In this document: piece after piece, positions 14,287 through 36,988 of the stretch | Layout: each line of letters begins with the position of its first letter | How positions within the stretch are numbered: position 1 is the first letter of the stretch | Source: Patescibacteria group bacterium | Lineage (GTDB): Bacteria > Patescibacteriota > Patescibacteriia > UBA1558 > GWA2-36-10 | Direction: 5' to 3' | Length of the DNA: 37,516 nt | Assembly: GCA_018062885.1 (NCBI GenBank) | Contig: JAGORJ010000006.1 | Coordinates: 1-37,516 of the forward strand | Program-made: the position numbers and the translations under genes | The notes under the pieces: model-generated | The model's database searches: none | The model's input: the letters and a program-made list of their open reading frames with translations, nothing else | What the model was told of the DNA's origin: nothing

Positions 14287-14301
14287 GTGCGGCTAAGAAA
14301 A

Positions 14302-15735
14302 ATGTTTAAAAAGAATAAAATTTTAATTATTAGCATAACAGTCATTATTATTTTGATTGCTTTTTTGCTTTATCAAAAAATGGAAGAAGATAAGTTTTTT
14401 AATACTTATCATAATCAAACTTATAATTATTCTTTTAAATACCCTAAATATTTAGAACAAAGTGTCCATTGTTCTGGTGATGATCCAGTTTTTATTGCTG
14501 AAAATCCACAGGATTTTAACTCAGACGCTGTTTCAGTTGTTACTTCTCTAGCTAATTTTAATAATTTAGATGAGTGGTTACAAAAAGAAAATGAGTATTG
14601 GCAAAATTATAATAAAAAACGCATTGTAGAAACAGAAATAGAGATAGATAATAATAAAGCTTTTGTGACTTATTTGGAGACAAGTATTACGATGCCAAAT
14701 TTAGATAATCAAAATCAAGTTGGTATTGAAAAAGGTGAGAGTAGAAAAACAGTTTTTGTTAAAAATAATGTTTTATTTGAGATTAATACTCGTTTTATTG
14801 CTAATCAAAGCGAACAGCAAAAAATTTGGGATAGCTTTAAGATAGCTGATTTTAAGCAAATAAACACAGCGCAAAATAGCGCAGGCATTTATGTTAATCA
14901 GTATTATAATTATTTCATCAATTATGGAGATAATTTGAGAGTGAGTGAGTTTTGTTTTGGCTATCCAAATAATGTGAGTTTGTCTACCGTTGATGCAGAT
15001 CTTCCTTTTCATCTTGTGAATATTGCAGTTTTAGAAAATACTAGTTTTAAAACTATTAAACAATGGCAAGAAGCAGAAAATGCTAAAAATTCTGTATCTT
15101 TGCAAAAGTTTGAAAAAAATATTTTGATTGATGATTATCCAGCACAAGTTTTTTATGTGGCGGGTAAGAGTTCTTTATATGAAGATGAGCCATATAATAA
15201 AAAGACTGTTTTTATAAAAGATAATAATTTATTTATTATTTCTACTTATTTTGGAGACGAAAAAGATCATCAAGTAGTTTGGGATAATTTTAAATTTATT
15301 GAAAATAACTTGAGTCAAATAGAAGATTGGAATTTATATCAAGAAATTACGGATAAAAGTTTAAAAGCTAATCTTTTTGGTAATCCTGATGAATGTGTGC
15401 AAGTAGAGAATTTTAATCAAGAATTTGCTGATTTTAAAAAACAAGCCAATCGCGGAAATATCAAACAATTTTTATATGATGGAGTTTTAGAGCTTGTTAT
15501 CACTCCTAATTATAATAATTGGACTAATGATCAATTTTTAGCCTTGAGTGCAGATAATGGGGCGATTTGTAGTGTTGGTCATTTTAGCCCTGTGCGTGCT
15601 TATGAAGATAAGCTGTTGTGGAATTTGCCCTGTAGCTCTGGTGCGATGCCAGAAAAAGATGATCCAACCTATACAGATTTTATAAAATGCACAGAAGCAG
15701 AACAGACGGTGCTTGAGTATTTCTCAAAAAAATAA
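14302..15735 (+). CDS. Membrane-anchored protein with two tandem copies of a PsbP-like domain
   Basis: The ATG at 14302 is preferred to the GTG at 14287 (477 residues). It has an N-terminal helix at about residues 7-25, then two related domains of about 145 residues. Copy 1 (about 32-180) has YNYSFKYP at its start and RKTVFVKNNVLFEINTRF with QQKIWDSFKI at its end. Copy 2 (about 190-330) has YNYFINYG and KKTVFIKDNNLFIISTYF with HQVVWDNFKFI. The YxFxYP start recalls PsbP-like surface domains. A third, unrelated part holds four Cys (about residues 365-470), possibly disulfide-bonded outside the cell. The function is unknown. Confidence 0.75.
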   Translation: MFKKNKILIISITVIIILIAFLLYQKMEEDKFFNTYHNQTYNYSFKYPKYLEQSVHCSGDDPVFIAENPQDFNSDAVSVVTSLANFNNLDEWLQKENEYWQNYNKKRIVETEIEIDNNKAFVTYLETSITMPNLDNQNQVGIEKGESRKTVFVKNNVLFEINTRFIANQSEQQKIWDSFKIADFKQINTAQNSAGIYVNQYYNYFINYGDNLRVSEFCFGYPNNVSLSTVDADLPFHLVNIAVLENTSFKTIKQWQEAENAKNSVSLQKFEKNILIDDYPAQVFYVAGKSSLYEDEPYNKKTVFIKDNNLFIISTYFGDEKDHQVVWDNFKFIENNLSQIEDWNLYQEITDKSLKANLFGNPDECVQVENFNQEFADFKKQANRGNIKQFLYDGVLELVITPNYNNWTNDQFLALSADNGAICSVGHFSPVRAYEDKLLWNLPCSSGAMPEKDDPTYTDFIKCTEAEQTVLEYFSKK

Positions 15736-15738
15736 TAT

Positions 15739-15767
15739 TTGACAAAAAGTCTTGATTTTACTATGAT
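15739..15767 (+). promoter_or_regulatory. Near-consensus promoter of the 7TM/lipid operon
   Basis: TTGACA (15739-15744), exactly 17 bases, TATGAT (15762-15767). This is among the best sigma70-type matches in the window. It gives a leader of about 40 nt. Confidence 0.75.
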
Positions 15768-15783
15768 AATGCTGACGGCTGTC

Positions 15784-15801
15784 AATTTAGACGGCTAAAT
15801 T
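15784..15801 (+). promoter_or_regulatory. Inverted repeat in the operon leader, candidate operator or RNA hairpin
   Basis: AATTTAG (15784-15790), ACGG, CTAAATT (15795-15801): a perfect 7-bp inverted repeat just after the predicted start site. It overlaps a direct repeat of GACGGCT (15774-15780 and 15790-15796). No T tract follows, so it is not a terminator. Confidence 0.45.
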
Positions 15802-15812
15802 AGACTCAAATT

Positions 15813-17177
15813 ATGACCTTGGCTAATCTTATTTTGTGGATTGCTCTGTTGATAAACTTAAGTTTATTGCTAACTATAGTTTTCAATAAGCAACAAAGAC
15901 ACAAGAAGCAAGTTTTTTTACTAGTGTCTTTGATCACTTTGTGGGAGATTATTGAGCTTTTGAATGTTTTTTGGCTAAGAAATACCGACTATTTATTATT
16001 GGGTGCGCGTTTTGGACTTTTGCCTAATTTATTTATTGCCCCAGCCTTTTTGTGGCTGGTTTTTTCTTTGTGTGAAAGTTGTCATTTGGTGAAAAAATGG
16101 ATCAAAATAGCTGTCTGGTCGCCAGCTGTCCTGATGCTACCGTTTTTATTTACAAACTATAATATCAGTAGCGTCACTGTGACGGAAACTGGCTTTATTT
16201 TTCAACAAGAAATTTTGTATTGGTTTTTTCTTGTGTATTTTCTAGGCATTCTCTCCTGGGCTTTGATATTTTTGCTTCGCACCAGTAAAAATCTGAATCT
16301 GATTATCAAAAAACAAGTTGCGTATATTTTTTTTGGTACAGCCATTACGGCCAGTATGGGCATAGTTTTTAGTGTGATTTTGCCTTTATTTGATATAAAG
16401 TCTTTATTTTATCTCGGTGTTGATTCGTCGGTATTTTTTACTATCACCTTAGTATATGCCTTGTCACATGAAAGATTTTTGGATCTAAAATTGTTTTTTT
16501 ATCAGAAATTATTAGACTTCGTGGCTTTATTTATAGTTTTACTGATTTATTACTTTATTTTTTGGTTGCTATTGAATTTTATCAATATAGATTTTACTCA
16601 ATTTACCGAACAAATTTTATTTGTGGTTTTTGTGGGTTTGAGCTCACCTTGGCTTTATCAGGCTTTGTATCGTTTGCTGGATATTTTGTTTTTTAATCCC
16701 GATCAAAATTTTAATCAAACAGTAGAAAATGTCGCTGATATTTTGCGCTCAAATAGAGATTTGAATATTTTATTTTCTAAATTAGCCAAAGAGCTAGCAG
16801 AAGTCATAGACTATGAAGAAATTTTCATTTATTTAGCTAAACATAATAATAGCGAAATTTTTCACCAAGTTTTTCCAGTAGGGGAAAGACTTTTGCATTT
16901 AAAAGACGATCAATTGTTGCAGTTTTTGGCAAGTCATAGTCAGATGGTTTATCAGGCAGAAGTGGAGTATCAAAATACAGATCAATATTTAAGTTCGGCT
17001 TTAAAAAAACAGCAAATTGATTTAGCTTTACCGATTTTTTATAATCAACAGTTATTGGGTGTTTTAGTGATAGATAATGGGCGTAAATTATTGTCTAAAC
17101 AACAATTGCAATTTATGGCAGACATTAATAAATATTTAGATATCGCAGTCGGTAGTTTGTTACTGGCTAATAAGTAG
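15813..17177 (+). CDS. 7TM sensor with GAF domain but no kinase
   Basis: A 454-residue protein with seven hydrophobic helices (about residues 1-220), a second membrane pair (about 228-285), a helical linker, and a C-terminal GAF-like domain (about 300-452) with ALPIFYNQQLLGVLVIDN, a typical GAF core. The layout matches the first half of the histidine kinase at 24613 in this operon (7TM, two more helices, GAF), but it stops before any HisKA or ATPase domain. It is therefore a sensor without its own output, perhaps acting on the kinase or the neighbouring 7TM proteins. First gene of the operon; no SD. Confidence 0.8.
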   Translation: MTLANLILWIALLINLSLLLTIVFNKQQRHKKQVFLLVSLITLWEIIELLNVFWLRNTDYLLLGARFGLLPNLFIAPAFLWLVFSLCESCHLVKKWIKIAVWSPAVLMLPFLFTNYNISSVTVTETGFIFQQEILYWFFLVYFLGILSWALIFLLRTSKNLNLIIKKQVAYIFFGTAITASMGIVFSVILPLFDIKSLFYLGVDSSVFFTITLVYALSHERFLDLKLFFYQKLLDFVALFIVLLIYYFIFWLLLNFINIDFTQFTEQILFVVFVGLSSPWLYQALYRLLDILFFNPDQNFNQTVENVADILRSNRDLNILFSKLAKELAEVIDYEEIFIYLAKHNNSEIFHQVFPVGERLLHLKDDQLLQFLASHSQMVYQAEVEYQNTDQYLSSALKKQQIDLALPIFYNQQLLGVLVIDNGRKLLSKQQLQFMADINKYLDIAVGSLLLANK

Positions 17178-17186
17178 TTTAATTAT

Positions 17187-17876
17187 ATGGATTACGAAGG
17201 AATTATTTTATTTTTAGTTATGATTATCAACCTCGTTATGAGCGCGATTGTTGTGTCGCGTGGATATAAAAATCCAATCAATAAGTATTTTTCTTTAATG
17301 ACATTTTTTAATATTTTATGGGCAGGGGGCCTATTGTATTTTAGATTGAGTAATGATTATGAAATTGTGCGTTTTTTCGGAGCCTTTGTTTATTTTGCTT
17401 CGTTGCTAGTAGTGTTAAATTTATTTTACTTTACTTTATATTTTCCTTTTAAAATGTTTAAATTTTCAAAAAATTGGCAAAATATTTTTACATTATTGAT
17501 ATCTCTAGGTGCTTTATACTTTGTGTTTTTTTATCAAAAATTCTCTCTTTCGGTTGAGACATCAGGTTTAAACTCTATTGTGTATGAACCGATTGCATAT
17601 TTAATTTTTACAGTAGTTTTGGCAATTTTGATGCTGGCAGCTATATTAGTTTTAGCTATTAAATATTATATGTCTGACCAAGTGTTCAAGAAGTCATTAT
17701 TGCTAGTGTTAGTAGGTGTTATTTGTGGCGTATTGGCTGGCAGTTATTTTAATTTGTATGCTATGTATACAGATAATTTTAATGATTATCATTTTGGACC
17801 TTTATTTACTTTAGTTATTAATTTTGTGGTTTTCTATCTAATCTTTTTAAAAAGAGATAAAAAATTAGAATACTAA
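17187..17876 (+). CDS. Standalone 7TM protein (histidine-kinase N-terminal 7TM type)
   Basis: A 229-residue protein made of seven predicted helices (about 5-24, 33-52, 60-84, 100-118, 133-160, 170-192, 205-222) and almost nothing else. The last helix begins with the motif FGPLFTLVINFVVFYLIF, shared with the two other solo 7TM proteins here. The fold type is the N-terminal 7TM module known from histidine kinases and GGDEF proteins, here with no attached output. Gaps are nine bases upstream and four downstream. The ligand is unknown. Confidence 0.75.
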   Translation: MDYEGIILFLVMIINLVMSAIVVSRGYKNPINKYFSLMTFFNILWAGGLLYFRLSNDYEIVRFFGAFVYFASLLVVLNLFYFTLYFPFKMFKFSKNWQNIFTLLISLGALYFVFFYQKFSLSVETSGLNSIVYEPIAYLIFTVVLAILMLAAILVLAIKYYMSDQVFKKSLLLVLVGVICGVLAGSYFNLYAMYTDNFNDYHFGPLFTLVINFVVFYLIFLKRDKKLEY

Positions 17877-17880
17877 TTAT

Positions 17881-18582
17881 ATGGATTTTTTAATATCACC
17901 TTTAGGTTGGAAAAATTGGCTATTATTGATAGCGGCTCTTATTAATTTGGGCATGGCTATCTTTATTTTTTCCCGAGGGATTAAGAATAAAGTAAATCTA
18001 TATTTTTCCTTACTGACATTTTTTTGTTTTACTTGGGCAATTGGGCTCTGTTTTGCTAGATGGACTACTGATTTATTTTGGACCTCTATTTTCGCTCGTA
18101 GTACTTATATATCCGCTTTGTGTATAGCCTTGTCTTTATTCTATTTTGCTTTAACTTTCCCGTTTCCTAGTAAAGGGGTTGGTAAAAAATTAACATTTTT
18201 AGTGTGGTTATTTTTTATCTTTTTATCTTTTTTAACCTACACTAAGTGGTTTATTACCTCATTTATCTCAGCTTATTCAGCAGGTGAGTATATATCATTT
18301 TTCTATTTACCAGGATACATAGCATACTTTATTTATTTTGGCCTAATTGCGATTTTTGCTTTATCTAACCTGTTTAAAAAATATAAAATTTTAGAAGGTG
18401 CGGCAAGAAAAAATTTACTTTTACTTTTTTTTACTATTTTAATTGGTTTAATTTTTGGAACTTATTTTGATTTGTTTTTATTAATTTTTCAGGATTTTAG
18501 ATTTAATTGGTTTGGTCCAGTTTTTACTATCTTTATGAATAGTTTGGTTTTTTATTTATTAATATTTAGTAAAGAAAAGTAA
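17881..18582 (+). CDS. Standalone 7TM protein, close paralog of the 22654 gene
   Basis: A 233-residue 7TM protein that begins MDFLISPLGWKNWLLLIAAL. The first 50 residues are nearly the same as those of the protein at 22654 (MEFLILPIGWKHWLLLIAAL), at DNA level too. It ends with WFGPVFTIFMNSLVFYLLIF after the seventh helix. Helix 2 holds the FSLLTFFCFTWAIG pattern, also shared. It overlaps the next gene by one base (TAATG), suggesting coupled synthesis with the asparaginase-fold protein. Confidence 0.75.
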   Translation: MDFLISPLGWKNWLLLIAALINLGMAIFIFSRGIKNKVNLYFSLLTFFCFTWAIGLCFARWTTDLFWTSIFARSTYISALCIALSLFYFALTFPFPSKGVGKKLTFLVWLFFIFLSFLTYTKWFITSFISAYSAGEYISFFYLPGYIAYFIYFGLIAIFALSNLFKKYKILEGAARKNLLLLFFTILIGLIFGTYFDLFLLIFQDFRFNWFGPVFTIFMNSLVFYLLIFSKEK

Positions 18583-19565
18583 TGCTTAAACAAAAAAAGA
18601 AAATCTGTTTATTGTTGGCTGGAGGCACTTGGACAGTAGATAAAAGCAAAAATATTTTAGCGGTTAATAGCGCTGATGATTTGGATAATTGGTTAGCTAC
18701 TATGCCGGAATTAGCTATTTTATCTGATTTGGATATTCATTTTTTGGCTGACGAAGAAGTACAAGTTGGGGTGGATCTGTGGACCAAGATAGCTAAGTTT
18801 TTGATCAATAGGCAAAATGAATTTGATGGTTTTGTGCTTGTGACCAAAGTAGAAACTTTGGTGATGAGTGCAGTTGCTTTGAATTTTTTATTACAGCATT
18901 TCCCCAAAACTTTGGTGTTAACGGCTTCACAAATGAGCGGTCTTTATACCAAAGAGAAAAAAGAACGCATGCAAGAGCTTATTAGTGCTCAAGGTGGTTT
19001 GGGTCTACGCTCTAACCTTATCAATGCCGTGCAAGCAGCTGGCGAAAGTTTGCCTTCAGTAGCAGTGATGTTTGGTAGTCGTTTGGTAGCTAGTGTCAAA
19101 GCCAGATTAGAGTATCAGCAAGGAAAATATATACTTTTGAGTGTTGATGATGATTATTTGGCTAAAATAGACTTTGGTATTAGTTTCAAAAATAATTTGA
19201 CTTATCCTAAAAATGCTGCAAAAGAATTTTCTAAATTATCTCAGGAAGTTTGTATTTTGTCGGAGTTATTTTCGGTGCAATATTTATGGCCCAAAGAGGC
19301 TTTCTCAGCTTACAAGGCTATTTTAGTTTTTTTGTCCAATGAAGAATTAGGCTCTGAACAAAAAAAATATTTAGCTTCTTTAAATAAGCCGATTATTATT
19401 TATCATCCGCATTCTTTGCAGCAAGAAAAAGATTTTATCAGCCTGAATTCTTGTACGCCAGAAACAGCGGTGGCAAAAGTATTGTGGTTGGTAGAAAATG
19501 TTGAAGTGCAAGATTGGTCAAAAGTTATTCAGTCTAATATTATTGATGAATTTGTTAAATTTTAA
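18582..19565 (+). CDS. Asparaginase-fold protein lacking catalytic threonines
   Basis: A 327-residue protein with the skeleton of type I L-asparaginase: an N-terminal Gly-rich loop LLLAGGTWTV, DLWTKIAKFL, FDGFVLVTKVETLVMSAVAL, PKTLVLTASQ and NLINAVQAAGE. The two catalytic motifs are altered. TGGT is AGGT (residues 13-16), which loses the nucleophile, and HGTDT is TKVET (88-92), which loses the second Thr and Asp. It is probably not a hydrolase; a ligand-binding or scaffold role is possible. Family assignment is from motif order and is moderately sure; loss of activity is inference. Confidence 0.6.
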   Translation: MLKQKKKICLLLAGGTWTVDKSKNILAVNSADDLDNWLATMPELAILSDLDIHFLADEEVQVGVDLWTKIAKFLINRQNEFDGFVLVTKVETLVMSAVALNFLLQHFPKTLVLTASQMSGLYTKEKKERMQELISAQGGLGLRSNLINAVQAAGESLPSVAVMFGSRLVASVKARLEYQQGKYILLSVDDDYLAKIDFGISFKNNLTYPKNAAKEFSKLSQEVCILSELFSVQYLWPKEAFSAYKAILVFLSNEELGSEQKKYLASLNKPIIIYHPHSLQQEKDFISLNSCTPETAVAKVLWLVENVEVQDWSKVIQSNIIDEFVKF

Positions 19566-19570
19566 AATAT

Positions 19571-20131
19571 ATGACAATTTATTTTTACAGTCACGAAAAA
19601 AAAGATATCAGTCGTTCTATTTTGCAGTATTTGCACAAAATCGAAGTGGAGGTTTTTAGTAATTTGATTCCCACTAAAAATGAAGAAACTTCTTTGAGTA
19701 AAGCCGACGCTTTGGTGGTTTATGATGAGGGTTTGACGGAATTGAGTAGCTATTTTGTGGCTTTGGCTATTTCTGAAAACAAGCCTATTTTATTTTTGAC
19801 CAATAAAGCAGGCTCACAAACAAAAGCTTTACAAACTTTGCGTTCAGATAAAAACTTTAAAAATAAACTGGAAGTTAATATTTGTGAAGCAAAAAATGTT
19901 TTAAATATTTTATTGCAATTTTTACAAAAATTAGATCAAAATAGTGGACGAGATGTCATTAATGTCAAATATACTTTGCGAGTTTCGGCTAAAATGTCAG
20001 ACTATTTGGCTTGGAAATCCCAGTCAACGGCTATGCCAAAAGCAGATTGGATCAGAAATCTGATTGCAGACACATGTCAAAATGATAAAGACTATCAAAA
20101 TTTTTTGAATCAAAAATATAAAACTCAGTAA
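19571..20131 (+). CDS. Rossmann/TIR-like protein with C-terminal ribbon-helix-helix
   Basis: A 186-residue protein. The N-terminal half (about 1-115) alternates strands and helices (IYFYSHEKKDISRSILQYL, then KADALVVYDEG, then YFVALAISENKPILFL), a layout like nucleoside 2-deoxyribosyltransferase or TIR-like folds; the usual catalytic Glu is not apparent. The C-terminal part (131-168), VKYTLRVSAKMSDYLAW plus KADWIRNLIADT, has the strand-helix-helix pattern of CopG/Arc-type DNA-binding domains. It could be the operon's own regulator. Gaps are five and three bases to its neighbours. Both domain calls are by eye. Confidence 0.55.
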   Translation: MTIYFYSHEKKDISRSILQYLHKIEVEVFSNLIPTKNEETSLSKADALVVYDEGLTELSSYFVALAISENKPILFLTNKAGSQTKALQTLRSDKNFKNKLEVNICEAKNVLNILLQFLQKLDQNSGRDVINVKYTLRVSAKMSDYLAWKSQSTAMPKADWIRNLIADTCQNDKDYQNFLNQKYKTQ

Positions 20132-20134
20132 TTT

Positions 20135-20932
20135 ATGATTAAACAGCAAGTCAAGGAGTTCAGGGCTTTGGAAGGGGTGACAAAAAAAGCTTGGCCTTTT
20201 CAGATCAAAAAAGGTCATGATACCTTAGCTATTTTGGTGCATGGTTTTACTGGTACGCCTTATGATTTGTGGGTATTGGCAGATTTTTTGTCTATCAACC
20301 AGATGGATGTAGAGGCGCCTTTGCTAGCTGGACATGGTGGTAGCATTCAGCGATTGGCTGCTTCAAATTCAGATGATTGGCTAAATTCTTTGGAGAAAGT
20401 TTTGTTGGAAAATGTAGGCAAGTATAAAAAAATATTTTTTGTTGGTTATTCTTTTGGTTCTAATTTGTCTTTGCACCTGTCTATAAAATACGCCGATCAA
20501 ATTTCTGGTATCATAGCTTTGGGTGTGCCAATTTTTATGCGTAATGAAAAAAGAATTAGACTACTTTTACCATTGGCTAAGATATTCAAAAAAACTTACA
20601 AAAAACATTGGCTTACAGAAGAAGATGAAACTAATTTTCAGGACGAAGGCCGTCACAATTATATTCCGATTAGCAGTTTGTTACATTTTTATAATTTTAT
20701 TGATGTTTATACCAAGCCAGAGCTAGCTAAGATAAAAGTGCCTGTTTTGGTTATTCATTCGCGTGATGATTTGGTTTCAGATCCATATAGCTCGGAGTTT
20801 TTATTTGCTCAATTGACAGCTACGCGAGATAAACATTTGTTTATTTTGAATAAAAACGAGCACCATGTCATAGACAACACTAGAAGAGATTTTATTTTTA
20901 CAAAAAGTTTAGATTTTATCAAGGAACATTAA
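20135..20932 (+). CDS. Alpha/beta hydrolase (carboxylesterase or monoacylglycerol lipase type)
   Basis: A 265-residue esterase-type hydrolase. LVHGFTGTPYDLWVLADFL (34-52) and APLLAGHGGS (61-70) resemble Est30-type carboxylesterases and monoglyceride lipases. The nucleophile is Ser106 in GYSFGS, the acid is Asp211 in HSRDDLVSD, and the base is His243 or His244 in NEHHVIDN. No signal peptide is seen, so it acts inside the cell. Directly upstream of an acyl-CoA synthetase (4-base gap), it most likely releases a fatty acid from an ester such as a host glycerolipid; the substrate is inferred from context. Confidence 0.87.
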   Translation: MIKQQVKEFRALEGVTKKAWPFQIKKGHDTLAILVHGFTGTPYDLWVLADFLSINQMDVEAPLLAGHGGSIQRLAASNSDDWLNSLEKVLLENVGKYKKIFFVGYSFGSNLSLHLSIKYADQISGIIALGVPIFMRNEKRIRLLLPLAKIFKKTYKKHWLTEEDETNFQDEGRHNYIPISSLLHFYNFIDVYTKPELAKIKVPVLVIHSRDDLVSDPYSSEFLFAQLTATRDKHLFILNKNEHHVIDNTRRDFIFTKSLDFIKEH

Positions 20933-20936
20933 ACAT

Positions 20937-22649
20937 ATGCTGACTATTTCTTCCAAGTTTCAATCTATCGCTCAGATGTATGCTGATCATACGGCGCTGG
21001 CTTTTTTAGACCACGCTAAATATCATAAAATCACTTATCACAACTTAGATCTTTTTCGTTTGCGTTTGGCTGAAACTTTAAATACTTGGTCATGGAAGAA
21101 ACAAGAAAAAGTGGCAGTGATGTTAGTCAATGGCCCGGAGTGGATTATCAGCGATTTAGCAGCTTCAACTTTGGGTTTAGTAATAGTACCTTTACATTTG
21201 ACTTACAATCAATTACAGCTAGAGCAAATTATAAAACACGCTCAAGTGGATTATTTGATAATTCAAGAAGAGTATTTTCATAAATTTCAAGATTTATGGC
21301 TTGATTTTTCTTTTAAAACTATTGTAGTTGTTGGTCAATGTAAAAAACAGAGTGAAAAGATTAAGCTTTGGCCAAATTTAGAAAATATGCCTAATAGTTT
21401 TGATTTCCCGAATTTCCCTGTTTCAGAAAATGATTTGCACACCATCATTTATACTTCTGGCACAACTGGTGATCCAAAAGGTGTGATGCTTAGTCACAAA
21501 AATTTAATCAGCGATGTGATGGCAGCCAAAGAGGCCATAGATATCACTTTTAGTGACCGCTTTTTTTCTTTTTTGCCACTTTCACATGCTTTTGAGAGAG
21601 TAGCTGGCTATTACGCACCTATTTTTTCAGGAGCAAGTATTTATTTTGCGCGTAATTCTAAGACTATTGTAGAGGACATCAAAATTGCTCAACCGACGGT
21701 TTTGAATGCTGTGCCTAGAATTTTTGAGAAAGTTTATGATAAGGTTTTTGATAAAATTAGAACAGGCAGTGATTTGAAGAAGAGATTATTTTATCAGGCT
21801 TTAAATTTGGCTAAGTATAAAAAACAAAGGTCTTTACAAATTTTGGAAAAAGTTCAGCTTTATTTTTTGGATAAAATTGTTTTGCGTAAATTGAGACATA
21901 TTTTGGGAGGAAATCTGCGTTTGGCTATTTCTGGTGGCGCTTCTTTGAATCCCGCAATTGCTAAATTTTTTGGCAACTTAGGCATCCAGGTGATAGAGGG
22001 CTACGGTTTGACTGAAACATCGCCAATTGTAGCTGTGAATCAAATTAAAAACTATAAATTTGGAACAGTAGGAAAAATTTTGCGTTGTAACCAAGTTGTG
22101 ATTGCGCCGGATAAAGAAATTTTGATAAAAGGTGACAATTTGATGCAAGGGTATTATAATAATAGAGAGCTAACTACAGAGGTGGTAGATCAGGAAGGTT
22201 ATTTTCATACAGGTGATCTTGGATTTTTGGATAGTGATGGTTTTTTGACTATCATTGGCAGAGCTAAAGACATGATTGTCCTTTCGACAGGTAAAAATAT
22301 TTTTCCCGAGCCAATAGAAAATACTTTAAATGAAAGTAAATATATTGCTCAGAGTTTTGTCTATGGAGATAAGCAAAAAAATATAGCTTCTTTGATAGTA
22401 CCAGATTTTACATCATTAGAGTCTTGGTGTAAGCAAAATGAAGTGGATTATCTTTTACCAGAAGTTTTGCATAATTCCAAAGTCTTAACGCTCTATGAAA
22501 ATGTTTTAGCAGAAAAATTAAAAGATTTTTCACATTTGGAAAAAGTTAATGATTTTAGTTTAATAGGTCAAGAATTTACTCAGGAAAATGGTCTTTTGAC
22601 GCCAACTTTAAAATTAAGGAGAAATAAAATTAAGGAGAAGTATTTATAA
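20937..22649 (+). CDS. Long-chain fatty acid-CoA ligase (AMP-forming)
   Basis: A 570-residue ANL-superfamily enzyme that activates a fatty acid to acyl-AMP and then acyl-CoA. The phosphate-binding loop is YTSGTTGDPKG (172-182), followed by FLPLSHAFERVAGYY, typical of FadD15-type long-chain ligases, then EGYGLTETSP, YFHTGDLGFLD, GRAKDMIVLSTGKNIFPEPIE, and a C-terminal LTPTLKLRRNKI that holds the catalytic Lys region. The domain order is complete. Few Patescibacteria make fatty acids, so the substrate probably comes from outside or from the neighbouring hydrolase. It sits in the middle of the operon with 4-base gaps. Confidence 0.93.
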   Translation: MLTISSKFQSIAQMYADHTALAFLDHAKYHKITYHNLDLFRLRLAETLNTWSWKKQEKVAVMLVNGPEWIISDLAASTLGLVIVPLHLTYNQLQLEQIIKHAQVDYLIIQEEYFHKFQDLWLDFSFKTIVVVGQCKKQSEKIKLWPNLENMPNSFDFPNFPVSENDLHTIIYTSGTTGDPKGVMLSHKNLISDVMAAKEAIDITFSDRFFSFLPLSHAFERVAGYYAPIFSGASIYFARNSKTIVEDIKIAQPTVLNAVPRIFEKVYDKVFDKIRTGSDLKKRLFYQALNLAKYKKQRSLQILEKVQLYFLDKIVLRKLRHILGGNLRLAISGGASLNPAIAKFFGNLGIQVIEGYGLTETSPIVAVNQIKNYKFGTVGKILRCNQVVIAPDKEILIKGDNLMQGYYNNRELTTEVVDQEGYFHTGDLGFLDSDGFLTIIGRAKDMIVLSTGKNIFPEPIENTLNESKYIAQSFVYGDKQKNIASLIVPDFTSLESWCKQNEVDYLLPEVLHNSKVLTLYENVLAEKLKDFSHLEKVNDFSLIGQEFTQENGLLTPTLKLRRNKIKEKYL

Positions 22650-22653
22650 TTGT

Positions 22654-23361
22654 ATGGAGTTTTTAATTTTACCAATAGGATGGAAACATTGGCTATTGTT
22701 GATAGCAGCTCTTATTAATTTTGGCATGGCGATTTTTATTTTTAATCGAGGTACCAAGAACAAGGTCAATTTATTTTTTTCTTTACTAGTATTTTCTTGT
22801 TTTTTATGGTCATTTGGTATATTCTGGCAGATAGTTTTACGAAGCGTTGTGTGGTCAAAGTTTTGGTTTCAGACAAGTTTCATAGGTGCGTTGGGCGTGG
22901 CTATATTTTTGGTGCACTTTGTAGTTAATTTTCCTTTTAAGAGTATAAATTTAAAATTTTTTTCTGTGTATCTTGCTTATGTATTAGCTTTTATTTTGGG
23001 TATTTTTTCATACACAAGGTGGAATATGGTAAGTTTTGATAAAATAGTATATCAACAAACTTATGAATTTATCATACATTACAATCCTATTTTTCAATGG
23101 ACTTACTCTTTATTTTTTATTATTTTAGTTACTTATGCTTTATATATTTTATTACAGAAGCGTAAACATGTAGAAAATTATTTGAAAAAAGATATTTTAA
23201 TTTTATTTTGGATGATACTTACGGGATTAATTTTTGGTTTTTATTTCAATGTACTTTTGGATTATAGTGGTAATTTTCAATATGAGTGGTTTGGGCCAAT
23301 ATTTACTGTGCCTATGAATTTAGTAGTGGTTTATTTAATTTTTTTTAAAAGGCATAGATAG
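22654..23361 (+). CDS. Standalone 7TM protein, close paralog of the 17881 gene
   Basis: A 235-residue 7TM protein with the same architecture as the gene at 17881: GWKHWLLLIAALINFGMAIF, a shared FSLLVF...LWSFG second helix, and a final EWFGPIFTVPMNLVVVYLIF. The DNA around 22681-22760 is nearly the same as 17911-17990, while the rest has diverged, so the two genes arose by duplication or partial conversion. It lies between the acyl-CoA ligase (4-base gap) and the alpha-oxoamine synthase. Confidence 0.75.
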   Translation: MEFLILPIGWKHWLLLIAALINFGMAIFIFNRGTKNKVNLFFSLLVFSCFLWSFGIFWQIVLRSVVWSKFWFQTSFIGALGVAIFLVHFVVNFPFKSINLKFFSVYLAYVLAFILGIFSYTRWNMVSFDKIVYQQTYEFIIHYNPIFQWTYSLFFIILVTYALYILLQKRKHVENYLKKDILILFWMILTGLIFGFYFNVLLDYSGNFQYEWFGPIFTVPMNLVVVYLIFFKRHR

Positions 23362-23393
23362 TTTTTCTTTATCTTTAGTAAATAAAGTTTAAG

Positions 23394-23399
23394 TATAAT
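23394..23399 (+). promoter_or_regulatory. Internal -10 element before the alpha-oxoamine synthase gene
   Basis: TATAAT twelve bases before the ATG at 23412, in the only gap (50 bases) of the operon. The transcript would have a leader of about 5 nt. No -35 is visible. Confidence 0.5.
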
Positions 23400-23411
23400 A
23401 AATTTGAAAAT

Positions 23412-24611
23412 ATGCAAAATATTATTGATAGTTTAAATGAAATTAGAAAACTTGGCCAATATCCTGATGTTCATGTTATTGAGAGTTCTCCTGAGCCAGA
23501 AATTTTAATTAATGGCAAAAAGATTTTATTATTTTGTTCTAGTAATTATTTAGGAATGGCAACTAATCAACAACTAATAGATTCAGTTGCCTTATCTTTT
23601 AAAAAATATGGCACAGGATCAGGGGGCTCTAGATTATTATCTGGGACTTACGATGCGCATATTCTTTTAGATAAAAAAGTTGCAGCATTCAAATCAGCAG
23701 AAGATGCCTTAACTTTTAACAGTGGTTTTCAAACTAATTTTAGTGTAATCAATAGCATAGCGAATCCTTTTAAACTCTCATTGAAGAGTATGTTTTTATC
23801 ACAGAAGACAATAATTTTTAGCGATGCCTTGAATCATGCGAGCATAGTTGATGGTTGCAGGAGTAGTAAATCTGAAGTGTTTATTTATAAGCATAATGAC
23901 ATGCAAGATCTTGAGAGAGGGCTAAAAAAATATAAGAAGAAAAGGAAGCTAATTGTTACGGATGGTGTTTTTAGTATGGATGGTGATATAGCCAAGCTGG
24001 ATCAAATAGTAAAATTATCAGAGATTTACGGTGGTTTAATTTACGTTGATGATGCTCACGCCACTGGAGTTCTGGGTAATTTTGGTGGTGGCACAGCTGA
24101 ACATTATAATGTCCAAGATAAGATTGATATACAGATGGGCACATTTAGTAAAGCGGTAGGCGTTTTAGGTGGTTATATCGCTGGTAGAAAAGAGCTGATT
24201 GAATATTTAAGGGTTGCAACTAGGTCATATATTTTTTCCACGGCAATGCCTCCTGCGATAGCTGAGATTATAGCCAAGTCTTTGGACATAATACATAATA
24301 ATAATGATTTAAGAGTGAGAATAAAAGAGAATGGTGATTATTTAAGAGATAACTTACAAAACCTAGGTTTTAATACTTTGACGAGTGAAACGCAAATTAT
24401 ACCAATTTTAATAGGTGATGATAATAAGGCTATTGAAGCTGCTAGGTACTTGTTTGATCGAAATATTTTTGGCCCAAGTGTTAGGTGGCCAGTAGTAGAA
24501 AAAAATCGTAGCAGGATAAGACTAACCGTTATGTCTACACATACTAAAGAGCATTTAGATTATTTATTATCTGTTTGTAGTAAAATGAAAAAAGATTTAA
24601 AAATAAATTAA
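23412..24611 (+). CDS. PLP-dependent alpha-oxoamine synthase (BioF/KBL/SPT/CqsA family)
   Basis: A 399-residue fold-type I PLP enzyme that joins an acyl-CoA to an amino acid with loss of CO2. Motifs in order: CSSNYLGMA, GTGSGGSRLLSGTYDAH, DALNHASIVDG (the His that stacks on PLP), TDGVFSMDGDIAKL, YVDDAHATGVLG (the PLP-binding Asp) and GTFSKAVGVLGGYIAG with Lys247 as the Schiff-base residue. It does not point to one subfamily: AONS (biotin), KBL (threonine), SPT (sphingoid bases) or CqsA/LqsA (alpha-hydroxyketone signals). No biotin genes are nearby. The acyl-CoA ligase upstream and a sensor kinase one base downstream favour a lipid or signal product. Confidence 0.9.
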   Translation: MQNIIDSLNEIRKLGQYPDVHVIESSPEPEILINGKKILLFCSSNYLGMATNQQLIDSVALSFKKYGTGSGGSRLLSGTYDAHILLDKKVAAFKSAEDALTFNSGFQTNFSVINSIANPFKLSLKSMFLSQKTIIFSDALNHASIVDGCRSSKSEVFIYKHNDMQDLERGLKKYKKKRKLIVTDGVFSMDGDIAKLDQIVKLSEIYGGLIYVDDAHATGVLGNFGGGTAEHYNVQDKIDIQMGTFSKAVGVLGGYIAGRKELIEYLRVATRSYIFSTAMPPAIAEIIAKSLDIIHNNNDLRVRIKENGDYLRDNLQNLGFNTLTSETQIIPILIGDDNKAIEAARYLFDRNIFGPSVRWPVVEKNRSRIRLTVMSTHTKEHLDYLLSVCSKMKKDLKIN

Positions 24612-24612
24612 A

Positions 24613-27411
24613 ATGTATTTTTTGATTATAGTAGCAATTTTTTCTTTGGCATTAGGTACGTATGTTTTAACTAAAGGGGTAGGTAAAACATTAAATAGAC
24701 TATTTTTTTGGTTAACCATTTTTTCTACATTATGGATTTTGACAAATGTATTAGCGGGGTTAGTGGGGACAATTTTTTGGATTAAAAGCGCCTATGCTTT
24801 TGGTGCGTTTGTACCAGCCGCCGCTCTTATGTGGGTTTTATATTTGTCTGGGTTAAAGATAAAAAATTTTTATTTTTATTTAATAGGTTGTTTGGGGCTT
24901 TTCTTTTTCATTTTACCTTATGTAGATGGTTTAGTTTTATTAAAGATTGATGCAGTTTTTTTAGGTGGTTTTATTGGTAAATTTGGGCCATTATTTCCTC
25001 TTTATGCTTTTTATCAGACAGCTATGTTTTTATCAATGTGGTTTGTTTCTTATATTTCGTATAAAAATTCTTCCATAGGGTTGAAAAGGGAACAATTTAA
25101 GTATGTATTTATAGGGGTAGTTTTAACTTGTTTATTGATATTTATAGTTAGTTTTTTGTTGCCGCTATTTGATATTATACGTTTTACTTTTTTAGATAGT
25201 CCATCGCTAGTTATTTTTTTATCTTTTATCACTTATGCAATTACTAGATTTCGTTTATTTAATATTAAATCTTTTATTACTCGAAGTATTTTATATGCGG
25301 TTTTAGTTGCTAGTGTAGCTAGTTTTTTTGCTTTTTCTATTTTCTGGTTAGCACCTAAATTTGGCGGCGATACCCGTAATGGTAGAATTATTAGTACAAT
25401 TTTAAGTTCCATTTTGATTGTCGTATTTTTAGACCCCATCAAAAGAGTATTTGCAAAGTTAACTGATGCTATTTTTTATAAAGATAAAATAGATTATTCA
25501 CAAGTATTACAAAAAGCTAGTTCTATTGTTTCCAAAGAAATTGATTTGCAAAAATTATTGCACGAATTAGCCTTATTATTAAGTAAGGAGTTGAAATTAA
25601 AAAAAGTAAAAATATTTCTCCCGGTCAATAATAAGTTTGTTTTGACAGCGAGCTCTTCTAGTCATAACCAAACAGTTGTTTTGGCTGATCATATTATGAA
25701 ATATTTTGTTGATAAGAAAAGTATAGTGATTACTGAGGAGTTATTTAATCAAAGGGATGAAGAGTCAGATAAAAATTTGCAAGCATCAATTGATCATGTG
25801 ACGCAAGAGTTGGAAAATATTGGCTCAGAAATGACCATACCTATCATAGAAACTGGTCAAATTAATGCTTTGTTTGTCTTATCCCAAAAAATGTCTGGTG
25901 ATATTTTTGGTACAGATGATATTAATTTTTTTAATTTATTAGCCCCACAGATTGCGACTGCTATTGAAAAGTCAAGATTATACGAAGAAGTGCAAGAGTT
26001 AAATCTTGATTTGCAGAAAAAAGTTGATGAAAGAACTGAAAGTTTAAGGAAGGCAAACCTGGACTTAGAAGATAGAAATAAGTATCTCACTACTATGCAG
26101 GTGGTGGTGAATATGATTAGTCGCACACTGGATCTTAAGCAAGTAACGCAAATGATTGCCAATAGTATTGCTGCTGAACTTGGTTATATTGGTGGTGTTT
26201 TGAGCTTTGTTAACGCGGACAATAAATTGCGTGTCAAAGCGGTTACGGAAAATAAACAAGCCCAAGAAAGTATTGCTTTGTTGCCAAAAGATATTTTTCA
26301 TTATGAGGCAGACCTAAAAGGTGGTTATAATTTTGGTGTAGACACAGTGCTGACTGCAAAGATTAATTTTTCTGAGCACATGACAGACTTTTTTTCACCG
26401 CCAGTTGATAAAAATATCATTGAAGCGATTCAGGAAAAATTAGGGGTCAAAACAATAGTAGGTGTGCCTATCTTTTCTGAAGATAGAATCATCGGTGTAG
26501 TGCACTTTTTGCTATCAGTGGAAAGAGAAAAAATTTCTCCACTAGATATTGAGATGATGACTTCTTTGACGAGTCAGGTTGGGATAGTTTCTAGAAATTT
26601 AGCTTTGTATGAAAATTTACAAAAAGTAAATTATGATTTAAATGATGCTAATTTGCATTTGAAAGCTTTGGATAAAGCTAAATCTGAGTTTTTGTCCATT
26701 GCCTCTCATCAGTTGCGCACTCCCGTGTCTGCTTTGAAAGGTTATTTGTCTATGATGATGGAAGGAGACTTTGGACCATTGCCTGAGAAGATAAATAAAT
26801 TAATCGGTGATTTATTTGAAAGTGCCTCTCGTTTGGCTCGTACTATCAATGTTTTCTTGAATGTGTCGCGGATTGAAGCTGGTCGTATGAAACTGGAGAA
26901 AAAACCGATGCAAATCGGTGATTTGGTCAATAGTGTGATGACAGAGCTGGCTAGTGCGGCGGCAAATAAAAATATCAAATTAAGTTACGAAGTTGATAAA
27001 CAGCCTTTGCCATTGGTTTATGCTGATAGCGATAAATTAAGAGAGGTGATTTTGAACTTAGTTGACAATGCTATTAAATATACACCTCAAGGTAGTATAG
27101 TTGTTAAAACTCTTACACAAGGAAATATTTTGGAGTTTAGCAGTCAAGACACTGGCGTGGGTATTGATCCAGCTGAAGCGCAAGCTTTGTTTAGAAAATT
27201 TGTCAGAGGTGATGGCGCGGCGCAAATCAATACTGGTGGTTCCGGCTTAGGTTTATTTATTGCTCAAAAGATTGTCAAAGAGCATGAAGGTAATATTTGG
27301 GTAGAGAGCGCTGGTAAGGGTAAAGGTAGTGTTTTCAAATTTACTGTGCCCCTGGCAACTAAAGAGCAGATAGATATAGCAGAAAAGGAAAAAAATGAGA
27401 AGAAAGTTTAG
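24613..27411 (+). CDS. Hybrid-free sensor histidine kinase: 7TM, two GAF domains, HisKA, HATPase
   Basis: A 932-residue membrane kinase. It has seven N-terminal helices (about 1-215), two more (about 225-275), GAF 1 (about 290-455), a coiled coil (455-490, LQKKVDERTESLRKANLDLEDR), GAF 2 (about 495-675) and a HisKA domain with His699 in SIASHQLRTPVSALKGYL. The ATPase domain has the N box NLVDNAIKYTPQG (Asn819), DTGVGIDP, and GGSGLGLFIAQKIVKEH. All catalytic motifs are intact. No response regulator gene is adjacent, so it is an orphan kinase. It is the last gene of the operon, and its N-terminal half mirrors the kinase-less protein at 15813. Confidence 0.93.
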   Translation: MYFLIIVAIFSLALGTYVLTKGVGKTLNRLFFWLTIFSTLWILTNVLAGLVGTIFWIKSAYAFGAFVPAAALMWVLYLSGLKIKNFYFYLIGCLGLFFFILPYVDGLVLLKIDAVFLGGFIGKFGPLFPLYAFYQTAMFLSMWFVSYISYKNSSIGLKREQFKYVFIGVVLTCLLIFIVSFLLPLFDIIRFTFLDSPSLVIFLSFITYAITRFRLFNIKSFITRSILYAVLVASVASFFAFSIFWLAPKFGGDTRNGRIISTILSSILIVVFLDPIKRVFAKLTDAIFYKDKIDYSQVLQKASSIVSKEIDLQKLLHELALLLSKELKLKKVKIFLPVNNKFVLTASSSSHNQTVVLADHIMKYFVDKKSIVITEELFNQRDEESDKNLQASIDHVTQELENIGSEMTIPIIETGQINALFVLSQKMSGDIFGTDDINFFNLLAPQIATAIEKSRLYEEVQELNLDLQKKVDERTESLRKANLDLEDRNKYLTTMQVVVNMISRTLDLKQVTQMIANSIAAELGYIGGVLSFVNADNKLRVKAVTENKQAQESIALLPKDIFHYEADLKGGYNFGVDTVLTAKINFSEHMTDFFSPPVDKNIIEAIQEKLGVKTIVGVPIFSEDRIIGVVHFLLSVEREKISPLDIEMMTSLTSQVGIVSRNLALYENLQKVNYDLNDANLHLKALDKAKSEFLSIASHQLRTPVSALKGYLSMMMEGDFGPLPEKINKLIGDLFESASRLARTINVFLNVSRIEAGRMKLEKKPMQIGDLVNSVMTELASAAANKNIKLSYEVDKQPLPLVYADSDKLREVILNLVDNAIKYTPQGSIVVKTLTQGNILEFSSQDTGVGIDPAEAQALFRKFVRGDGAAQINTGGSGLGLFIAQKIVKEHEGNIWVESAGKGKGSVFKFTVPLATKEQIDIAEKEKNEKKV

Positions 27412-33832: not shown

Positions 33833-35407
33833 ATGAATTTTATGCCACAAAATATAAAAAACAAAATAACGGCTCCATTAGTCCTGGCCATTTTGGATGG
33901 CTGGGGAATTTGGAAGGAAACCGAGGGCAATGCCATTGCCTTGGCCAAAACTCCAGTGATGGATAGTTTGTACAAAAAATATTCCAATACTTTGATCAAT
34001 GCTTCTGGAAAATATGTTGGTTTGCCTGATGGTCAACCAGGAAACTCAGAGGCTGGCCACATGAACATTGGGGCTGGTCGTATCATTGAGCAAGATGCTA
34101 TCACTATTTCCAAGAGTATCAATAACGGAACTTTTTTTAAGAATCCAGCTTTTTTTCAGGCGACAAAACATGTCGCTCAATACAAATCAGATATTCATTT
34201 GATGGGCTTGTTGTCTGACGGCTCTAGTCCACACGCTGACAATGATCATTTATTGTCTTTGCTCAGTTTTTTTGTCAACAAAACTAAAGCCAATATTTAT
34301 TTGCATTTATTTACCGATGGTCGTGATAGTCCACAATTTGCTGCTTTGAAAGTTTTGGAAAAATATAAAAACATTTTTGAGCGTCAAAGAATTCAAGTGG
34401 CAACTGTGATGGGACGTTTTTATGCTATGGATAGAAAAAAATCTTGGTCGCGTACAGAGCTGGCTTTTAAAGCTTTGGTCAATGGCCAGGGAATTAAAGT
34501 AAATTCTGCAGCCGAAGGCGTCAGTCAGGCTTATAACAGGGGAGAAAGTGATGAGTTCATCAAGCCGACAGTAGTGCTAAAAAATAAAAGACCAGTCGCT
34601 ACTATCAAAGACAAAGATGCGGTAGTATTTTTTAATTTACGATCAGATAGAGCAAGGCAACTGGCTAAGGCTTTTGTGCAAGCAGAATTTGAAAAGAAAA
34701 ATCCTAACTCTTTTAAGCGTGGACATGTTTTTAAAAATTTATTATTTGTTGCACTTACAGATTTTGGGCCAGACTTGGATAGTATTTTGACAGCTTTTCC
34801 TGGTATTGATTTGCCGGAAACTTTACCAATGGCCCTGAAAGATTTGCGTCAACTGTATCTAGCAGAAACTGAAAAATATGCTCATGTCACTTATTTTTTC
34901 AACGGTGGCTATGATCATATAGTGGCTGGTGAAGAGCGGGTAAATATTCCATCCAAAGACGTTGACTCTTATGCTCAAACGCCAGCGATGTCCACTCAAG
35001 AGTTAGCTAGCTATGTCAGCAAAGTTGTGACTGAGAAAAAATTTGATTTTATTTGTGTCAATTTTGCCAGTCCAGACATGGTCGGGCACACTGGTGATTT
35101 GCAAGCTGGTATCAAAGCAGTTGAGGTGGTAGATAGAGAGCTCGGTAAACTTATACAAGTAGTATCTCAAGCCAAGGGCACGGTGATTGTGACGGCAGAT
35201 CATGGTAATATTGAAGAAATGATTGATTTGAAAACCAAAGAAGTAGATACTGAGCATTCAACTAATTTAGTGCCATTTATTATTGTAAATAAAAATAAAT
35301 ATACTTTAGTTAAAAATGGAGCCTTGGCTAACATTGCGCCGACAATTTTAGATATTTTGCAAATTGAAAAACCAAAGTTAATGTCAGCCAAATCTTTAAT
35401 AAAATAA
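33833..35407 (+). CDS. gpmI: 2,3-bisphosphoglycerate-independent phosphoglycerate mutase, copy 1
   Basis: An alkaline phosphatase-superfamily mutase converting 3- to 2-phosphoglycerate. It has 524 residues from ATG 33833 (ATG 33842 also possible). AILDGWGIW is the first metal motif, Ser72 in PGNSEAGHMNIGAGR is the phosphate acceptor, then HLFTDGRDS, GRFYAMDR, NLRSDRARQL, AETEKYAHVTYFFNGG, FASPDMVGHTGD and VTADHGNIEEM. All active-site motifs are intact. It is followed six bases later by a second complete gpmI. Confidence 0.94.
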   Translation: MNFMPQNIKNKITAPLVLAILDGWGIWKETEGNAIALAKTPVMDSLYKKYSNTLINASGKYVGLPDGQPGNSEAGHMNIGAGRIIEQDAITISKSINNGTFFKNPAFFQATKHVAQYKSDIHLMGLLSDGSSPHADNDHLLSLLSFFVNKTKANIYLHLFTDGRDSPQFAALKVLEKYKNIFERQRIQVATVMGRFYAMDRKKSWSRTELAFKALVNGQGIKVNSAAEGVSQAYNRGESDEFIKPTVVLKNKRPVATIKDKDAVVFFNLRSDRARQLAKAFVQAEFEKKNPNSFKRGHVFKNLLFVALTDFGPDLDSILTAFPGIDLPETLPMALKDLRQLYLAETEKYAHVTYFFNGGYDHIVAGEERVNIPSKDVDSYAQTPAMSTQELASYVSKVVTEKKFDFICVNFASPDMVGHTGDLQAGIKAVEVVDRELGKLIQVVSQAKGTVIVTADHGNIEEMIDLKTKEVDTEHSTNLVPFIIVNKNKYTLVKNGALANIAPTILDILQIEKPKLMSAKSLIK

Positions 35408-35413
35408 TTTTTT

Positions 35414-36988
35414 ATGCGTCCAAAACCAGTTATTTTGATAGTTTTAGATGGCTTTGGCATTGCGCCACCGACAAGAGCCAATGCGATTGCTTTAGCAAAA
35501 ACTCCAAATTTTGATAAATACATGAGTAACTATCCTGTCATGCCACTAGCATCCTCTGGGGAAGCGGTTGGTTTGTCTTGGGGTGAAATGGGTAACTCAG
35601 AAGTTGGTCATTTGTCTTTGGGATCTGGCACTATTTATTATCAAAATTTACCTAGAATTACCAAAGCAATTGCTGATGGGGATTTTTATCAAAATGAAGC
35701 ATTTTTAAAAGTCTGCCAGTATGTCAAAAGCAAAAGTTCTAGTTTGCATATTTTGGGTTTAGTTTCCTCGGGTGGTGTCCATAGTTTCAATGAGCACTTA
35801 TATGCTCTGGTAGAGCTAGCTAAACAGCAAAAAGTAGAGCGTTTGTATATTCATGCCTTTTTGGATGGCCGTGATACGGCTTATAATAGTGCTTTGAGTT
35901 ATATTACAGCTTTGGATTCTAAATTAAAACAGATTGGTCTGGGGGCCATTGCCTCTTTGTCTGGGCGTTTTTATGCCATGGATAGGGACAATAACTGGGA
36001 GCGCACAGAAAAGGCCTATCGTGTGCTAGTTGATGGTCAAGCAGATAATAAATTTGAAGACCCAATAGAAGCTATCAATGCTTCTTATGCTAAGAGTATC
36101 TATGATGAAGAGCTGGTGCCTACTATTATCACTGATGACTTGGGTAAAGCCAAAGGTGTGATTAAAGATGAAGATGGAGTGATATTTTTTAATTTCCGTG
36201 CAGATAGAGCCAGACAATTAACCAAAGCTTTGGTGCTACCAGGTTTTGAAAAATTCCCTCGTACTTATTTGAAGAGCTTGCTCTTTGCTACCATGACAGA
36301 ATATGAAACAGACTTGCCGGTGATCGTAGCTTTTCCTAAAGTAAATATGGATATGCCACTTGCTAGGGTGATTTCTGAGGCTGGCTTAAAGCAACTGCAT
36401 ATAGCGGAAACTGAAAAATATGCTCATGTCACTTATTTTTTTAATGGTGGCAATGAAAAAGTTTATCCCGGAGAAGAACGAATGCTTGTGCCTTCACCAC
36501 ATGTTGGCTCTTATGATGAAAAGCCAGCGATGTCGGCTCGCGAGCTAAGTAACAAAATAGTACAAAGTATCAAAGAATCAAATTATGATTTTATAGTAGC
36601 CAATTTTGCCAATCCTGATATGGTTGGCCATACCGGCAATTTGCCAGCGACGATTGAGGCAATTGAAATTGTTGATCGTTTGGTGGGAGAGATTGTGGAT
36701 ACGGTTTTGTCTTATGGAGGAGTAGCTTTGATCACGGCTGATCATGGCAATTGTGAAGAAATGTACAATTTGCAAAATGGTTTGATAAACAAAGAACATT
36801 CAAACAATCCTGTGCCCTTGTTTATCATCGGACAAGATTTTGCTGGCAAGAGCGTTTTGCCGGGTCTGGCAAACTCTGATTTGAGCCAGATTACTGCTAT
36901 GGGAGTTTTGGCTGATGTGGCACCGACAATTTTAAAAATTATGGGACTTAAAAAACCACCGACCATGACCGGCAGTCCTTTAATTTAA
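35414..36988 (+). CDS. gpmI: 2,3-bisphosphoglycerate-independent phosphoglycerate mutase, copy 2
   Basis: A second complete GpmI, also 524 residues. VLDGFGIAPPT, Ser62 in MGNSEVGHLSLGSG, HAFLDGRDT, LSGRFYAMDRD, NFRADRARQL, AETEKYAHVTYFFNGG (same as copy 1), FANPDMVGHTGN and TADHGNCEEMYN show that all metal and phosphate ligands are kept. It has diverged from copy 1 over most of its length, so the duplication is old or one copy was acquired. It is the last gene of the operon. Confidence 0.94.
   Translation: MRPKPVILIVLDGFGIAPPTRANAIALAKTPNFDKYMSNYPVMPLASSGEAVGLSWGEMGNSEVGHLSLGSGTIYYQNLPRITKAIADGDFYQNEAFLKVCQYVKSKSSSLHILGLVSSGGVHSFNEHLYALVELAKQQKVERLYIHAFLDGRDTAYNSALSYITALDSKLKQIGLGAIASLSGRFYAMDRDNNWERTEKAYRVLVDGQADNKFEDPIEAINASYAKSIYDEELVPTIITDDLGKAKGVIKDEDGVIFFNFRADRARQLTKALVLPGFEKFPRTYLKSLLFATMTEYETDLPVIVAFPKVNMDMPLARVISEAGLKQLHIAETEKYAHVTYFFNGGNEKVYPGEERMLVPSPHVGSYDEKPAMSARELSNKIVQSIKESNYDFIVANFANPDMVGHTGNLPATIEAIEIVDRLVGEIVDTVLSYGGVALITADHGNCEEMYNLQNGLINKEHSNNPVPLFIIGQDFAGKSVLPGLANSDLSQITAMGVLADVAPTILKIMGLKKPPTMTGSPLI

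Follow-up and report, generated by a model that had tools for sequence, protein, structure and literature searches.

An operon of Patescibacteria in which an exchangeable enzyme module and the sensor half of a histidine kinase co-segregate

Comparison with described synthase–kinase systems

In Vibrio and Legionella, the CqsA/CqsS and LqsA/LqsS systems place the gene of an alpha-oxoamine synthase (AOS) next to that of a multi-pass membrane histidine kinase. The operon described here, from a member of the Patescibacteria, has the same adjacency, which is repeated in its relatives. It differs in that it adds an acyl-CoA ligase, a hydrolase, a pseudo-asparaginase and extra 7TM proteins, and in that its enzyme slot is exchanged for other chemistries. 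Moreover, its AOS scores 196 bits with the CqsA/LqsA family model (NF005526/PRK07179), against a cut-off of 428, and direct membership in this family was therefore rejected; the relation was judged by this model score, the references of our AOS tree being BioF, KBL, serine palmitoyltransferase (SPT) and ALAS.

A previous study reported 51 CqsA-like and 18 LuxI-like synthases beside sensory kinases in CPR (Bernard et al. 2020, PMC7567580). These adjacencies are very probably the same kind of gene pairs as ours, and the pairing of AOS and LuxI-type enzymes with kinases in CPR is already known. A shared chassis, interchangeable modules and sensor–module co-segregation do not figure in the portion of that description available to us. 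As far as the literature searched shows, the shared chassis, the exchange of unrelated chemistries within a single slot and the co-segregation demonstrated here are new.

In the agr system of Staphylococcus and comQXPA of Bacillus, a hypervariable block comprises the signal maker and the N-terminal sensor of the kinase, while the kinase body is conserved (PMC10482373, PMC4008528). Here too, enzyme and sensor half are swapped over a constant kinase, the synthase and the N-terminal sensor varying together. However, the signal of agr and comQXPA is always a modified peptide, whereas in the present locus the class of chemistry itself changes. The modules found here are acyl-transfer and other small-molecule enzymes rather than makers of a processed peptide, and the locus therefore works like agr and comQXPA without being a member of that group. 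A further parallel is found in Rhodobacteria, where clusters combine SPT, an acyl-ACP synthetase and ACP, and thus likewise tie an AOS-fold enzyme to an acyl-activating ligase that draws on free fatty acid (PMC9386255). In contrast to these clusters, the present genome has no ACP, the AOS falls outside the SPT clades, and a kinase is linked.

The operon and its alpha-oxoamine synthase

The window, by which we mean the whole stretch of DNA analysed (37516 bases), belongs to a genome of 731 kb in 57 contigs that is 95% complete. This size and the lack of fatty-acid synthesis agree with an assignment to Patescibacteria, a phylum whose genomes are uniformly small. Ten ORFs on the plus strand occupy positions 15813–27411, separated by gaps of 9, 4, -1, 5, 3, 4, 4, 50 and 1 bases in order, behind a near-consensus sigma-70-like promoter (TTGACA-N17-TATGAT, 15739–15767, 11/12 matches). 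An earlier note on this DNA had described the ten tightly spaced genes and their single promoter, and all were found as described. Since the operon and its gene order recur in relatives, it is real, far beyond chance. It is flanked by housekeeping genes, with ribosomal S2, GAPDH and CysS upstream and PGK and enolase downstream. Behind PGK and enolase lie tandem genes for cofactor-independent phosphoglycerate mutase (33833–35407 and 35414–36988), and just upstream of the promoter is a 482-aa membrane-anchored protein with no Pfam match (14287–15735), an orthologue of which stands at the same place in a relative (G007).

The operon opens with a 7TM-GAF protein that has no kinase, a constant sensor (15813–17177; PF16927 1.4e-9, GAF 1.6e-5), and two stand-alone 7TM proteins, a (17187–17876; PF16927 1.7e-8, with family orthologues) and b (17881–18582; PF16927 2.1e-8). 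Farther on come an alpha/beta hydrolase (20135–20932; PF12146 1e-16, with a GYSFG nucleophile elbow), an AMP-forming long-chain acyl-CoA ligase (20937–22649; PF00501 2e-72, with YTSGTTGDPKG), whose top NCBIfam model, FadD11-like, scores below its cut-off, a third stand-alone 7TM protein, c (22654–23361; PF16927 7.7e-10), the AOS (23412–24611; PF00155 2e-60) and the kinase. The kinase sensor half, residues 1–200, is encoded at 24613–25212, and the remainder, at 25213–27411, carries the last two TM helices, two GAF domains, HisKA (ASHQLRTP at 697) and HATPase, giving a complete GAF-GAF-HisKA-HATPase architecture by Pfam and NCBIfam. These family matches bear out the hydrolase, acyl-CoA ligase, AOS-fold PLP enzyme and full histidine kinase named in the earlier note. 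Its five 7TM modules also stand: four of the five match HisKA_7TM (PF16927), and the fifth, the N-terminus of the window kinase, has no match of its own, whereas 11 of 13 orthologous N-termini do match.

Two further genes, both conserved, had been left unnamed. The first encodes a 327-aa asparaginase-like protein (AsnL, 18582–19565; PF00710 2e-14, PDB profile match 1e-31), which keeps the type I asparaginase fold and usually the GGT motif. The second catalytic motif, THGTD, occurs in 0/19 aligned AsnL orthologues, and the protein thus lacks the combination of TGGT and THGTD that marks a type I asparaginase. Judged by these motifs, AsnL is a predicted pseudo-enzyme and perhaps a binding protein. 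The second encodes a 186-aa protein (u186, 19571–20131), aligned over 19 orthologues. Its N-terminus weakly resembles the nucleoside deoxyribosyltransferase/DNPH1 fold (profile E 0.005), and its C-terminus forms a conserved strand-helix-helix reminiscent of ribbon-helix-helix proteins; a single-sequence AlphaFold2 model was of low confidence (pLDDT 46). As a guess, u186 might be a DNA-binding output. No response regulator is found among the ten genes of the operon, and the six short response regulators of the genome all lie on other contigs.

The AOS retains its motifs intact (HASIVDG at 142, DDAHATG at 213 and GTFSKAVG at 243), and the GTFSK, DDAH and HAS motifs align to SPT and KBL structures, placing the enzyme in the AOS superfamily. 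It nevertheless falls below every NCBIfam equivalog cut-off tested: 408.9 against 426.5 for BioF, 412.7 against 460 and 327.2 against 493 for KBL, and 362 against 640, 294 against 500 and 240 against 670 for SPT. A tree was built with the E. coli BioF and KBL, other labelled BioF, KBL, SPT and ALAS references, and another 48 AOSs from the phylum. In this tree, the kinase-linked AOSs form one clade (SH-aLRT 96) outside the BioF, KBL and SPT references. Of the 17 rows of this clade, 15 are kinase-linked, one is at a contig end and one is unlinked. Almost all other unlinked AOSs group with KBL references. No bioB match was found in the window genome. The earlier note's expectation that the AOS would lie outside BioF and KBL was thus confirmed, as was its tie to the 7TM kinase, a linkage that recurs across the class as well as in further classes of this phylum. 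Plasmid matches of 22–26% identity, tried as CqsA references, were set aside, as the two compared with the PDB were other AOS types. The enzyme probably joins a fatty acid to an amino acid.

A conserved chassis, a variable slot and the kinase sensor

We searched 140 relatives with both the AOS and the ligase, and labelled the ORFs of 20-kb neighbourhoods by their similarity to the window proteins. In the window genome's own family (f1; 21 genomes in the counts), the conserved order is 7TM-GAF, 7TM, AsnL, u186, hydrolase, ligase, a variable slot and the 7TM histidine kinase. The chassis thus consists of the 7TM-GAF protein, AsnL, u186, the hydrolase, the ligase and the kinase remainder, while the 7TM protein c, the AOS and the kinase sensor half make up the variable cassette. 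The earlier note had asked whether the accessory genes stay linked to the AOS. The ligase and hydrolase do share the operon in many relatives, but the operon is not centred on the AOS: the ligase is present in 17/21 family genomes and the AOS in 3/21, namely those of the window and G010 and, in the form of two separate ORFs, G017.

The occupants of the slot are diverse. An AOS is found in the window, in G010, together with an ADC-like protein, and in G028. A FeeM/autoinducer-synthase-type GNAT with ThiF (PF21926 1e-11, PF00765 1e-8) takes its place in G015, and a methyltransferase with FeeM in G008. PlsC with HAD or DUF362 occupies the slot in five genomes (G005, G006, G014, G016, G018) and also in four order members (G023, G026, G031, G033). 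In G012, G013 and G019, the slot holds a flavoprotein CoaC, a transglutaminase-like protein and a DFP/CoaB, in G020 a 532-aa protein of no assigned family, and in G011 a methyltransferase alone. The slot protein of G128 may be acyl-ACP-reductase-like, Pfam giving a Rossmann match only. PlsC is not in the window genome; where it occurs in the slot it is mostly the genome's only PlsC, and PlsC with HAD and the AOS are mutually exclusive there. In distant genomes, the kinase orthologue often lies beside PGK and enolase, preceded by an AOS, by FeeM with ThiF or a methyltransferase, by a GNAT with a methyltransferase, by an aminotransferase with a GNAT, or by another methyltransferase. The AOS is therefore one allele of a polymorphic enzyme slot.

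Several loci deserve separate mention. At L172, L174, L177 and L253, split CoaC-like and CoaB-like genes surround a transglutaminase-like gene directly before the kinase; since CoaE did not appear above its cut-off in three family genomes, these genes may not serve ordinary CoA synthesis. At L260 (G068:C2:52001-72000), sets of FeeM/LuxI-like, ThiF, methyltransferase and 7TM-kinase genes stand in a row with response regulators, forming a multi-copy array of loci of this kind. The AOS is broken into two ORFs at L032 (G017) and L134 (G046), the adjoining kinase being complete in G017 and cut short in G046; a receiver-only state or an assembly error is possible. The AsnL–u186 pair is kept in distant genomes near 7TM/AOS genes, without the full chassis, at L125 (G087:C12), L255 (G058:C2) and L261 (G127:C2).

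Comparison of the kinases revealed that the sensor follows the slot. Over residues 1–200 of the family kinases, mean pairwise identity is 0.32–0.56 between kinases with the same module and 0.18–0.29 between those with different modules, while from residue 201 to 932 the two curves nearly coincide (for example, 0.91 vs 0.88 at the phospho-acceptor), the break near residue 200 being sharp. Once kinase-domain identity has been regressed out, the module has an effect on sensor identity of 0.125 in the family and 0.081 over 36 kinases, in each case reached by 0/2000 label permutations. Such permutations leave some relatedness, which is reduced by the regression and by the tests on trees. Controls on the GAF and kinase regions displayed no module effect (206/2000 and 1125/2000 permutations), nor did the ligase, AsnL, u186 or 7TM-GAF in the same test of chassis genes; the hydrolase displayed a small one (0.03, 15/1000 permutations).

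The trees tell the same story. Eleven of the twelve AOS-linked sensors group in a single clade (SH-aLRT 99), although they belong to relatives at the family, order and class levels. The module labels require 14 changes on the sensor tree vs 22 on the kinase tree, and the AOS label alone 2 vs 8. In the AU test, a single clade of AOS kinase bodies is rejected (p 5e-56), as is one of PlsC kinase bodies. The twelfth AOS sensor is that of G010, where the ADC-like protein lies between AOS and kinase. A truncated kinase from another family with an AOS and ADC-like module (G064) matches the G010 sensor at 209 bits, the next best match being 136; in the reverse direction the match is less exclusive, several PlsC sensors of f1 scoring alike over a longer stretch. 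The exception is a sub-type, AOS with ADC-like protein, and the G064 match is as the pairing rule predicts. Among loci of the AOS type, the distances between AOSs and those between sensors correlate when G010 is left out (r 0.56, p 0.02) and not when it is included (0.18, p 0.25), and fine co-divergence, being weak and dependent on this omission, was not retained.

The clearest single case comes from two genomes of one genus, G046 and G087. The 3' part of their kinase genes is 87.7% identical in DNA over 2140 bp, whereas no similarity is detectable in the sensor or the modules, a GNAT facing the CoaC-transglutaminase-CoaB set. This is a recent cassette swap with a breakpoint inside the kinase gene. 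In independent pairs, the boundary between sensor and body lies near residues 200–280, which is the end of the 7TM region. Third-position GC is slightly lower in the window cassette (0.23–0.25 vs 0.28–0.29), too slight a difference to mark a recent import. Thus, module and sensor half co-segregate and are replaced together, as one cassette, on a kinase body that stays conserved.

Proposed mechanism, alternatives and meaning

The earlier note had suggested that the organism scavenges fatty acids. This agrees with our searches: beta-ketoacyl synthase (PF02801), the condensing enzyme of fatty-acid synthase, is absent from all 35 genomes examined (the organism's own and 34 relatives), with positive controls, so fatty acids must be acquired from outside. 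ACP was found in few order relatives only, being absent from the genome itself and its family, and CoaE did not reach its cut-off in the genome or the family relatives tested; the thioester carrier is perhaps acquired CoA. In G011, where a methyltransferase alone fills the slot, the ligase is missing from the genome while the rest of the chassis is present, one case that would be expected if the ligase feeds acyl modules.

The simplest explanation of the co-exchange, our analysis suggests, is that every sensor detects what its own module makes, and we consider it likely that the locus is a polymorphic synthase–receptor system of this kind. To judge by their families, the hydrolase would release a fatty acid and the ligase would make an acyl thioester, both as constant parts. 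The variable module would turn this thioester into a specific small molecule; in the window genome, condensation of the thioester with an amino acid by the AOS would yield an alpha-amino ketone, possibly followed by rearrangement to a hydroxyketone. Recognition of the module's product would fall to the sensor half of the adjoining 7TM kinase, which would drive the conserved GAF-GAF-kinase body; the partner of this kinase is likely one of the short response regulators encoded elsewhere. Exchange of module and sensor half onto the conserved kinase would then change the whole chemistry at once. The binding of the product by the sensor, its release from the cell, its structure and the output are what we infer from these data. 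The earlier note had suggested that the 7TM proteins may sense the product; in our data, only the kinase sensor tracks the enzyme slot, and the slot is polymorphic. Several points speak against the synthase–receptor reading: ACP and CoaE are lacking for the thioester carrier, the AOS is split in G017 and G046, and the operon contains no response regulator.

The strongest alternative, though an unlikely one, is membrane-lipid remodelling, in which scavenged fatty acids go into unusual membrane lipids of the cell itself (sphingoid-like with AOS, glycerolipid with PlsC, lipoamino acid with FeeM), the kinase providing homeostatic feedback and no signal being released. The exclusion between PlsC with HAD and the AOS, the slot often holding the genome's only PlsC, and a hydrolase and ligase suited to scavenging without fatty-acid synthesis all fit this reading, and a sensor monitoring the cell's own membrane lipid would also co-vary with the enzyme. 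However, small-molecule enzymes make up most of the alleles (FeeM with ThiF and methyltransferase, methyltransferase alone, GNAT with aminotransferase), and for this reason a product acting as a signal is favoured. Furthermore, neither a ketosphinganine reductase nor any later gene of the sphingolipid pathway was seen in the operon, and one would not expect a housekeeping membrane route to be missing or swapped from one close relative to the next.

The remaining alternatives are much weaker. It is improbable that enzyme and kinase 5' end move jointly through adjacency only: they do adjoin and transfer clearly occurs, but the boundary at the 7TM end recurs in independent pairs, and the same pairing persists in different families and classes. 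Still less probable is host-lipid sensing by the 7TM proteins, an option raised by the earlier note, with the enzymes breaking down or using that lipid. The hydrolase and ligase, together with the missing fatty-acid synthesis, would suit it, and the constant 7TM-GAF sensor, which does not vary with the module, could see such a lipid; the kinase sensor, however, changes with the cell's own enzyme and not with genome phylogeny, which makes host-lipid sensing the less likely option. Finally, ordinary biotin or threonine metabolism, with a BioF or KBL standing before the kinase by chance, is hardly credible, for although the best pairwise similarity of the AOS is to BioF/KBL/SPT-type enzymes, such a housekeeping role was ruled out by the equivalog cut-offs, its own clade and the absent bioB, and the kinase linkage is repeated.

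Taking the synthase–receptor reading one step further, we tentatively propose, at somewhat less than an even chance, a cell–cell signalling locus of Patescibacteria in which the chemical class of the signal is a swappable allele. The signal would be an amino-ketone, N-acyl amino acid, acyl-glycerol phosphate, fatty aldehyde or methylated compound; each would derive from a scavenged fatty acid or a precursor and be read by its own 7TM sensor on one kinase body. To our knowledge, almost nothing is known on communication in Patescibacteria, or on why symbionts with so few genes retain elaborate sensor operons. The locus offers a testable list of synthase–receptor pairs in which sequence alone shows the cognate partners, and it makes published guesses on CPR quorum sensing testable by sensor swaps. 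It also presents a case of receptor specificity evolving by the grafting of sensors for unrelated chemistries onto one kinase. If the swappable-signal reading is true, a single cassette exchange would switch group identity.
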